From assembly GCF_007752345.1 (NCBI RefSeq), contig NZ_CP036299.1, forward strand, positions 4,622,001 through 4,686,000: a stretch of 64,000 bases of DNA. The letters run 5' to 3'. The DNA comes from Planctopirus ephydatiae. Lineage in GTDB: Bacteria; Planctomycetota; Planctomycetia; Planctomycetales; Planctomycetaceae. The notes under the pieces were generated by a model. That model searched no databases. It was not told the DNA's origin and was given only the letters and a program-made list of their open reading frames with translations. Position numbers and translations under genes: made by a program. Shown piece by piece: positions 3,377 to 44,682 of this stretch (position 1 is its first letter; every line of letters begins with the position of its first letter).

Positions 3377-3468
3377 CGGTGGTGCCTGACAAGTTGAGTG
3401 AGATGAACGTCCTCAGCCGCTCGCCAACACCAGCTTTTGATACGGATTCCAGGAGATCATGGCCCCCG

Positions 3469-3500
3469 GTGTGCCATGCTTGCGGCTCAAAGCAAGCATG
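3469..3500. repeat. Dispersed hairpin element, copy 1
   Basis: GTGTGCC leads directly into CATGCTTGC (3475-3483), which pairs perfectly with GCAAGCATG (3492-3500) around an 8-base loop. The same head and the same stem occur at 8768-8799, and a relative with a different stem occurs at 44655-44682. It sits in the gap upstream of the SGNH esterase gene. Confidence 0.6.
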
Positions 3501-3615
3501 TTTGATTAACACGGCAGGCACATTTGATTTCTGGAATCGGTATGACAACGTGTGGAGCAAGCAGCGCTGGATATCTTCATACCAGTTTGGCAATTGATAA
3601 TGCCAGCACTCATTC

Positions 3616-8310: not shown

Positions 8311-8684
8311 AGGTATCTGTTTCACCACGTGAAGTCCGCTTGCAGAGCCCAAATGGAACACTTCAAAAGGTGTTCACACTGAGAGGATTCAGCACACGAG
8401 GAGTACCCGTGCTCCACAAAGATCTTACTCGGGATTGAATACCGAAACGAGGGGCTGCCCAGGAAGTTTGGCAAAATGGGTACGTTTGTTCTATTGATGA
8501 AGTCGAGAAGTGTGCCATCCACCAACCCGCACTTCCTCATGAGTGCTCACCTCTCCGGCAGAGACCGAACAATTGGTAAATTCCACAAGGGATACATTGT
8601 AACGGCTGCTCCAGCCGCACCTTCTGTACAGAAACCCAGGCGACTTCCAGCAGCGTCTTATCATGCTTTCCATAAAATGATATC
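8311..8684. other. Intergenic region upstream of the fusion gene
   Basis: This stretch contains no convincing gene. It carries the unresolved 5' end of the fusion gene, and GTGTGCCATCC at about 8510 recalls the head of the dispersed hairpin elements but has no matching stem. Confidence 0.4.
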
Positions 8685-8778
8685 GCTCTGTGTACCATAC
8701 GCTCTGTGTACCATACGCTCTGTGTACCATACGCTCTGCGTGCCATGCGTTCTGTGTGCTGTGTGCTGTGTGCCATGC
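8685..8778. repeat. 16-bp tandem repeat array
   Basis: GCTCTGTGTACCATAC occurs three times exactly at 8685-8700, 8701-8716 and 8717-8732. A fourth copy, GCTCTGCGTGCCATGC (8733-8748), differs at three positions. Further degenerate copies (GTTCTGTGTGCTGTGT and GCTGTGTGCCATGC) run into the dispersed hairpin element at 8768. The drift is mostly by transitions and moves toward the element's own head, GTGTGCCATGC. Confidence 0.85.
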
Positions 8779-8799
8779 TTGCAGCTCTGGGCAAGCATG
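8768..8799. repeat. Dispersed hairpin element, copy 2
   Basis: GTGTGCC leads into CATGCTTGC (8774-8782), which pairs perfectly with GCAAGCATG (8791-8799) around an 8-base loop. Head and stem are identical to copy 1 at 3469-3500 and only the loop differs. It directly follows the 16-bp tandem array and lies just past the 3' end of the exonuclease gene. Confidence 0.65.
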
Positions 8800-8841
8800 T
8801 TTGCGCAACCAACAACGCGCTGTTGCTTCCTGGGAGCCGAC

Positions 8842-9930
8842 TTAATCCGCCCCCTGTTCATCTGGCAGATCAATTTTTGACTCAGCGTCTTGGAGAGCCT
8901 CCTGCACAGCAGGGCCTTCTTCACCAGCAACAGGGTCTTCTTCACCAGCAAACTGTGTCTGCAGAGCATCTGCCTGAAGCCCGTGTTCTCGCAGCCAGCG
9001 GACAAGAATGGCCACCGATCCATGTGTCGCCAGAACCCGTTCACAGTTTGTTTCTTGAATGGCCCACAGCAATTCGGGCCAGTCGACATGATCCGACACG
9101 ACGAAACCACGATCCATCGCCTGCCGCCGGCGTGTCCCCCGAATCGTCATCCAGCCGGAAGCAAAAGCCATCGAGACATCGCCAAACTTTCTCAACCAGA
9201 CAGTTCCCTGCACAGAGGGTGGAGCAATCACAATCCCACGCGACCACTCGACACCTTTGGGATGACCCACCACCTGCTCTGTGGCCGGTAACTCAATTCC
9301 ACTTTGCCGATAATCGGCAGTGAGGTTCTCAACGGCTCCATGGGTATAAATGGGGCCGATGGATGGATCCAATAATGAAATCAGCCGCTGAGCTTTCCCG
9401 AGGGCATAGCCCAGGAGCACGCTGGTACGACCTGCCGCCTGATTCTCGCGCCACCAGGTATTGATCTCACTGGCGACAACAGCAGGATCGGGCCAGCGAT
9501 AGATGGGCATGCCAAAGGTCGATTCCGTGACGAATGTATGACAACGCACCGGTTCAAACGGCGTGCAGGTTCGATCCGGGAAAACCTTGTAATCACCCGA
9601 GACCACCCACACTTCTCCTTTGTACTCCACTCGAACCTGCGACGAACCCAGGATATGACCGGCAGGATGTAATGAAACCTTGACTGGCCCCATCGAGAAC
9701 TCGGTTCCATAGCCCACTGTTTCGATGAGAGCATCCTCTCCCATCCGTGTACGCAGGACACGCAGCCCTTCGTTCGCCGTCAGATAAGAGCCCATCCCCC
9801 GCCGCGCATGATCTCCATGAGCATGGGTAATGATCGCCTTGGGGACAGCTCGCCAGGGATCGATATAGAAATCACCCGCCTCGCAGTACAGACCTCGATC
9901 ATTCACAGTCAGCAGGGGTGTTGGGGCCAT
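8842..9930 (-). CDS. Ligase-associated-type DNA exonuclease (metallo-beta-lactamase fold)
   Basis: The 362-residue protein belongs to the beta-CASP branch of the metallo-beta-lactamase superfamily, related to CPSF/mRNA 3'-end processing factors and to the exonuclease usually paired with an ATP-dependent DNA ligase in bacteria. The start fits that family (a DRGLYCEAGDFYIDP-type opening). Zinc blocks are THAHGDHARRG, HPAGHILGS and SGDYK, with later conserved His-containing segments VSDHVDW and ATHG. The role inferred is DNA end processing in repair. No ligase or partner helicase gene lies next to it here. The last 35 residues are acidic, with a short AGEE duplication, and are probably disordered. 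Confidence 0.82.
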   Translation of the reverse strand: MAPTPLLTVNDRGLYCEAGDFYIDPWRAVPKAIITHAHGDHARRGMGSYLTANEGLRVLRTRMGEDALIETVGYGTEFSMGPVKVSLHPAGHILGSSQVRVEYKGEVWVVSGDYKVFPDRTCTPFEPVRCHTFVTESTFGMPIYRWPDPAVVASEINTWWRENQAAGRTSVLLGYALGKAQRLISLLDPSIGPIYTHGAVENLTADYRQSGIELPATEQVVGHPKGVEWSRGIVIAPPSVQGTVWLRKFGDVSMAFASGWMTIRGTRRRQAMDRGFVVSDHVDWPELLWAIQETNCERVLATHGSVAILVRWLREHGLQADALQTQFAGEEDPVAGEEGPAVQEALQDAESKIDLPDEQGAD

Positions 9931-44654: not shown

Positions 44655-44682
44655 GTGTGCCACTGCTGGCTTGCCAGCAGTG
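44655..44682. repeat. Dispersed hairpin element, copy 3 (different stem)
   Basis: GTGTGC leads into CACTGCTGGC (44661-44670), which pairs perfectly with GCCAGCAGTG (44673-44682) around a two-base loop. The GTGTGCC head is shared with copies at 3469 and 8768, but stem and loop differ. It lies 28 bases after the MBL gene. Confidence 0.55.

Follow-up and report, generated by a model that had tools for sequence, protein, structure and literature searches.

Three short hairpins with the head GTGTGCC lie far apart in the window analysed here, a stretch of 64,000 nucleotides of Planctopirus ephydatiae, and they raise the question of whether they belong to one repeat family and what carried them to their present places. 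Direct reading finds them, as the sequence-only reading had placed them, at 3469-3500, 8768-8799 and 44655-44682, all on the forward strand and each between larger open reading frames. The first two share, after the head, an identical 9-bp stem (CATGCTTGC/GCAAGCATG) and differ in their 8-nt loops; the third carries a 10-bp stem (CACTGCTGGC/GCCAGCAGTG) and the loop TT. Copy 1 sits between a GDSL lipase gene and an amidohydrolase gene, copy 2 between a polyprenyl synthetase/DUF116 gene and one that has no Pfam match, and copy 3 between a gene of the metallo-beta-lactamase superfamily and a DUF1501 gene. A search of the window with Rfam at gathering scores gave no matches. The three had been taken for one family, perhaps moved by a RAYT-type transposase or used as RNA processing sites; they fall into two different repeat families, and the RAYT part of the proposal fits only copy 3. 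In the reading that we consider probable, copies 1 and 2 belong to a 102-bp non-autonomous MITE that has IS630-type ends and carries a captured REP-type hairpin, and copy 3 is a separate, bare REP of a RAYT family. The find is genuine, and is a new variation on known repeat families. Below, G000 is the genome of the window (a 5.21-Mb chromosome), G001, G002 and G003 are genomes of the same genus, and other G numbers are other genomes.

The observation that the head stays constant while stems are swapped with pairing kept is upheld, with ATGCTTGC, ATGCTCAC, ATGCTCAT and ACTGCTGG all found after GTGCC. The ATGCTCAC/GTGAGCAT stem occurs there in two cases, both with pairing kept. The part of the head that is common is GTGCC, and GTGTGCC precedes 3 of the 12 ACTGCTGG places in G000. 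In an 800-kb sample of G000, one of 20 GTGTGCC hairpins has a stem other than the ATGCTTGC type, and it is the copy at 44655.

The head alone shows no excess, with 8 occurrences of GTGTGCC in the window and a mean of 8.47 in 100 shuffles; an excess over chance does appear when the head is joined to a stem. The genome search that had been suggested (GTGTGCC, at most 3 nt, then a stem of at least 8 bp) finds 20 cases in 800 kb of G000, which contain 125 GTGTGCC in total, and 15 in 800 kb of G001. As controls on the G000 sample, 60 permuted heads yielded on average 0.32 cases (at most 2), and none was found in any of five order-1 Markov sequences. The shorter head GTGCC with a stem occurs 42 times in G000 and 37 times in G001, compared with 5, 3, 2, 1 and 3 in the Markov sequences; the stem is of another kind in seven of the 42, and two of these seven are probably due to chance. 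The 14-mer of head plus stem, GTGTGCCATGCTTG, is present with at most one mismatch at 141 places in the 5.21-Mb chromosome, whereas the reversed control has 1; a few of the 141 places are adjacent members of a single tandem array. With 51 of 57 matches in G000 intergenic, this bears out the proposed REP-like, genome-wide and mostly intergenic family.

The family is concentrated in the genus. A 15-mer has 133, 137, 88 and 45 places in G000, G001, G002 and G003, and 0-2 places in 29 of 33 other genomes of the taxonomic family; the remaining four are G005 (10, known from this count alone), G008 (7), G009 (12) and G018 (6). The 12 places in G009 were dropped as hairpin copies, the nine loci read (L300-L308) holding a different, longer dispersed repeat that contains GTGTGCCTTGCTTGC and lacks the hairpin. 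Ten loci were read in G008 and G018, which represent two other genera, and eight of them contain hairpins, 11 in total, whose loop differs and whose head is mostly GGGTGCC; no TIR match of at least 9 was found around these 11, and in G008 armless hairpins also occur as inverted pairs. A wider contig scan returned 38 stretches, all in two MAGs labelled Planctomyces sp., from a collection in which near relatives of G000 may be missing.

Some features of the distribution and of individual copies stand apart. A third of the G000 chromosome (2228683-4012290) has only 2 of the 58 exact GTGTGCCATGCTTG copies strictly inside it, a pattern seen after the fact, and the region from 2.21 to 2.99 Mb in G001 has no exact copy among the matches listed; this copy-poor stretch is possibly the terminus region. 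At L019, L022 and G001 4663042 the hairpin has a longer loop with a GTCTTGAGTYAATAC-like sequence that is nearly self-complementary.

Copies 1 and 2 in the window are each enclosed by a longer element. Hairpin 1 is part of a 102-bp MITE at 3441-3542 (forward strand) with the ends TACGGATTCCAGGAGATC and GATTTCTGGAATCGGTA, and direct reading gives a TGA target duplication at 3438-3440 and 3543-3545. The block 3439-3544 is missing as one piece from G001 and G002, in alignments with flanks 90-93% identical, and where G000 has TGA, 102 bp and TGA, both empty sites hold a single TCA. As a single strand, 3439-3544 is predicted to form one long end-to-end hairpin (-47.3 kcal/mol, z -4.87), a fold that none of 200 shuffles equalled. 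Hairpin 2 is part of a 181-bp MITE at 8661-8841 (forward strand) with degenerate arms, which was found as a TIR pair and has an orthologue in G001 and G002. The TTA at 8658-8660 and the TTA at 8842-8844 are its likely target duplication, by direct reading and, for the left one, the TNA pattern, with no empty site seen. The element owes its length to an internal array at 8684-8757, between the left arm and the hairpin, of the 16-bp unit CGCTCTGTGTACCATA (4.6 copies and 91% matches by TRF), which is shorter in G001 and G002. At 102 and 181 bp, both elements are too short for transposase coding.

Terminal repeats resembling TACGGnTTCCAGGAAAnAACAGCGC and a 3-bp TNA target duplication characterize these elements in the genus. 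A G001 copy (3837482) is absent from G000, where one TGA stands against a TAA on both sides of the copy, and a 148-bp relative (G001 4579114) is also absent from G000, where one TGA remains. In a test of 59 arm-bounded elements for empty sites, adjacent flanks were found elsewhere for three and, in the sequence searched, for none of the others; one of the three (D 45634, of the 148-bp type) lies between flanks that have diverged, and its site departs from TNA. An arm matrix, derived from elements of these same genomes and run over 1.6 Mb, gave 29 inverted versus 1 everted arm pairs at a threshold of 11, 40 versus 14 at 9, and 26 versus 1 at 13. We collected 53 TIR pairs from the samples and fetched loci, which are not a random sample because the core served to fetch many of the loci and some pairs are orthologous; 33 contain the ATGCTTGC hairpin, 16 the GGGTGGCTGGGG type described below, and 4 something else. 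These pairs have T at -2 in 45 and A at +2 in 46, and their exact flank repeats are 3 bp long in 19 and 1, 2 and 4-8 bp long in 5, 2 and 0. Exactly 104 bp (ATAC..GTAT) is the length of 22 of the 33 elements with the ATGCTTGC hairpin, and 13 of the 16 of the GGGTGGCTGGGG type measure 148-151 bp. A TA duplication was rejected as a misfit with the empty sites, and a 1-bp duplication was rejected as the 1-bp repeat is accounted for by the TNA pattern.

Many hairpins have no such arms. Around 107 ATGCTTGC-type matches in 1.6 Mb, arm matches of at least 6 were found on neither side in 57, on one side in 37 and on both sides in 13, compared with 6 of 1070 shuffled flanks; the 57 without a match indicate that many copies are bare or decayed. 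When the left and right flanks of each copy were compared, 22 of 108 copies were at or above the 95% level set by shuffled flanks. Directly 5' of the hairpin head, tandem arrays whose units measure about 16-20 bp occur at 8684-8757 in the window and at L008, L017 and L023, and tandem duplications lie beside the hairpin in 4 of 107 cases versus 4 of 2140 random positions, which are few cases.

What could move the MITE? IS5-type elements duplicate TNA, and PF01609 matched in all four genus genomes, at 15 places, several of them short or with stops; PF13359 matched in none of the four. An IS5-type transposase was nevertheless rejected as the mover: an arm match lies near only two of the 15 PF01609 loci, both at G002 C233 (score 33.1), and this sole arm match led to an adjoining IS630-type ORF. 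At this locus (L236) the arm match lies about 66 bp before the ORF, with an arm at one end, and the ORF is cut by the contig end; the available part scores 84.1 bits to NF033545, below the cut-off of 100. The ORF has matches in 14 of 40 genomes, several of them weak, and among 22 loci read, two (L240 and L238) have inverted arm matches on both sides of the gene and two others (L252 and L255) have one arm match each. L240, in the same genus, is 1152 bp long, is 44% identical to the G002 ORF, is flanked by TCA on both sides and has arm scores of 14.5-15.6; its ORF is split over two frames, the longer of which is above the NF033545 cut-off. L238, in another genus, is 1156 bp long and 46% identical to the G002 ORF, has arm scores of 10.5-14.0, and encodes a 351-aa ORF with a DDE_3 domain that scores 213.7 bits to NF033545 (cut-off 100); TCA flanks it on one side and TGA on the other. 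IS630-type elements thus have ends similar to those of the MITE, at both ends in L238 and L240 and at one end in L236.

We infer that an IS630-type enzyme moves the MITE, and that the MITE may be mobile at present. An IS630-family DDE transposase would act in trans on the imperfect TIRs, cutting and joining them, and would leave the TNA duplication. The only relative of the IS630-type gene found in G000 (4836293-4836766), at 84% identity, is interrupted by an in-frame stop and has no arm match of at least 4 around it, so movement in that genome may need an enzyme not found. IS630 elements usually duplicate TA, as do Correia and RUP elements, and TNA is seen here instead of the TA duplication expected of IS630-derived MITEs; we therefore call the element a MITE with IS630-type ends and do not class it with the canonical IS630 MITEs.

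The same ends also enclose different contents. A second MITE of 148 bp carries an inverted pair of GGGTGGCTGGGG, which is REP-like and also present without an adjoining arm, and in one case a GGGTGGC-headed, longer stem with a bulge lies within the same arms. The GGGTGGCTGGGG sequence occurs at 25 places in 800 kb of G001, 10 of which adjoin an arm, versus 1 in 800 kb of G000, perhaps the result of a recent burst in one lineage. Within arm-found elements of the ATGCTTGC kind, similarity is 0.91 for the head, 0.92 for the 3' stem, and 0.58 and 0.60 for the arms (12 of 15 elements compared, omitting one whose stem differs and two that are 118 bp long; the 5' stem, at 1.00, is the alignment anchor). 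Orthologues differ by 6.4% in head and stem versus 14.5% in the arms, and by 3.5% versus 13.2% in the reciprocal direction (14 pairs each), a difference that the choice of copies could produce.

The simplest order of events is that the hairpins came first and that the MITE then took them up. The IS630-type MITE would have captured a REP-type hairpin with a GTGCC head and a ATGCTTGC/GCAAGCAT stem, which also occurs armless in this and other genera, and the 148-bp MITE would have captured a different REP-like pair. In this way, the MITE may have helped to raise the hairpin to 45-137 places per genome in the genus, mostly between genes. Only tentatively do we extend this to a vehicle with exchangeable cargo, in which IS630-type arms could take up at least two unrelated REP structures (the single GTGCC hairpin, the GGGTGGCTGGGG pair and perhaps the GGGTGGC-headed stem). 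Hairpins that evolved with a single-strand RAYT enzyme would then be spread by a double-strand DDE enzyme, and the cargo might be kept more intact than the vehicle as it functions in RNA or DNA after insertion.

Copy 3 belongs to another system. Its repeat GTGCCACTGCTGG has 12 exact places in G000, three of them as GTGTGCCACTGCTGG, and 19 in G001, where the window copy has an orthologue. In the wider family, 38 of 61 genomes have a match, with a maximum of 41 places in one, although in many genomes a count of 1-3 does not exceed that of the reversed control. No MITE arms were seen around the window copy. Inverted GTGCC-CACTGCTGG hairpins flank a RAYT gene in G003, of the same genus, and in G075 and G082 (loci L289, L285 and L284, in this order); G003 was found by scanning 58 Y1 loci, the other two by comparing the match lists of GTGCCACTGCTGG and Y1. 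The three genes score 100.4, 91.7 and 92.1 bits to NF047646 (cut-off 80), and the G003 RAYT shares 56% identity with that of G075 and 54% with that of G082. As inverted copies flank a RAYT in three other genomes, copy 3 is a real REP; it stands bare and belongs to a RAYT family that has its RAYT in a congener. The RAYT gene that had been predicted was thus found beside relatives of copy 3 in other genomes, and the RAYT of this family was not found in G000. Identity to the G003 RAYT is 33, 27 and 18% for the three Y1 genes in G000, each of which is accompanied by its own repeat.

Could a RAYT have moved all three hairpins, leaving the arms around copies 1 and 2 as passive neighbouring sequence? 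The GTGCC head is common to these copies and the copy-3 family, whose RAYTs do have flanking copies, armless ATGCTTGC hairpins occur in the genus and in G008 and G018 (as inverted pairs in G008), and one armless copy of about 36 bp (C163482) is absent in G001. ATGCTTGC-type hairpins also lie on one side of a RAYT in G069 C109 and at G001 3286936. We nevertheless regard this account as improbable, as the empty sites lose arms and hairpin together and keep one TNA, and as the length from ATAC to GTAT is exactly 104 bp in 22 of 33 armed elements. The scan for a flanking pair of ATGCTTGC hairpins covered 58 Y1 loci, among them 12 of the genus's 13 Y1 matches and part of those listed for other genera, and such a pair was found at none of these loci, nor at the 13th genus match. 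A RAYT was accordingly rejected as the mover of copies 1 and 2, each Y1 gene of G000 having another repeat and no flanking ATGCTTGC pair. At L287 (1097-1197, near 3286600 in G001) an inverted pair of GTGCC hairpins with the stems ATGCTCAT and ATGCTTGC lies on one side of a RAYT gene, about 0.24 kb from it, and the gene is broken by an in-frame stop; because of this pair, the ATGCTTGC core itself may have had a RAYT origin. The reverse of capture, in which the hairpin arose within the MITE and later escaped as bare copies, would also account for the armless copies in the genus. We find it hard to reconcile with the 11 hairpins of G008 and G018, which differ in their loop, mostly carry a GGGTGCC head and lack a TIR match of at least 9, and with the second, unrelated REP-like pair in the same arms, and consider it quite unlikely.

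A rival of a different kind leaves the mobile origin as history and predicts that the hairpin is retained by selection as an RNA element, either a weak intrinsic terminator or a 3'-end stabilizer. With genes called by our own codon-score model, the matches are intergenic in the 51 of 57 cases in G000 and in 47 of 50 in G001, whereas random placement gives 19% and 22%. Convergent junctions are enriched (20 of 51 versus 62 of 355 in G000, 20 of 47 versus 66 of 359 in G001) and divergent junctions are depleted (4 of 51 versus 86 of 355, p 0.007, and 6 of 47 versus 90 of 359, p 0.07); the counts of the two genomes are not independent because many copies are orthologous. A T-rich stretch follows the stem, and the core is more alike than the arms. 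Orientation speaks less clearly for an RNA element, since the co-directional bias is weak (17 of 27 in G000, p 0.25; 16 of 21 in G001, p 0.03). A crude gene model had given 31 versus 8 for the two genomes pooled, and the better model gives 17 versus 10 and 16 versus 5. Moreover, copies 1 and 2 are oriented against both neighbouring genes, terminator-like calls around these copies number 4, that at 3475-3500 included, where shuffles give 6.4, and a position after genes is also expected of insertions that survive. An RNA role of the hairpin is possible, and we consider retention by selection for that role somewhat doubtful as the explanation.

MITEs derived from IS630 elements are known as the Correia elements of Neisseria and RUP of pneumococcus (PMC2817692). 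Like these, as described there, the Planctopirus MITE is short, has imperfect TIRs and many intergenic copies, and its ends resemble those of an IS630-family element (PMC2817692); it differs in that it holds a separate, conserved REP-type hairpin and has a sister MITE with the same ends and another REP-like pair. REP/RAYT systems, or REPtrons, are known in gammaproteobacteria (PMC2817692), and the copy-3 family resembles them in its short head, its palindrome, the inverted copies around a RAYT and the scattered bare copies (PMC2817692). Its head is GTGCC and not the GTAG or GTGG that marks REPs, and its RAYT is in a congener instead of in G000. REPs tagged GTAG and CGTC have been reported for Planctomycetes as well, the CGTC type without a dedicated transposase (PMC3733652). 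They share with our repeats the form of head-tagged palindromes downstream of genes (PMC3733652), whereas the tag here is GTGCC and about half of the copies show an IS630-type MITE arm. The relevant passages of that paper report RAYT genes with TIRs and not REPs inside DDE-type MITEs (PMC3733652). In the open-access literature, with most subscription papers outside our scope, we found no description of these Planctopirus repeats or of a MITE with IS630-type ends and REP cargo in two versions.

As a rule, REPs and MITEs are handled as distinct classes, each with enzymes of its own. If our reading is true, a REP-carrying MITE would explain how a REP can be abundant without its RAYT and how one head can be found with several stems. 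Planctopirus limnophila is a genetically tractable planctomycete, in which an RNA role of the hairpins could be tested.

Palindromic repeats of other types accompany Y1 genes more widely. The genus Y1/RAYT genes at L004, L005, L006, L092 and L095 are each flanked by a palindromic repeat other than ATGCTTGC, with L092 and L095 sharing one type, and in other genera short TGCC-headed palindromes lie near Y1 genes at L081 1329-1355 in G048 (TGCCAGGGAGTTCACTCCCTGG) and at L086 in G051 (beginning TGCCCAGGG). A segment of about 0.84 kb that stands between two direct copies of the element at G001 3751012-3752044 is absent in G000, where the corresponding sequences overlap by 112 bp, as if the segment had been lost or gained by recombination between the copies.
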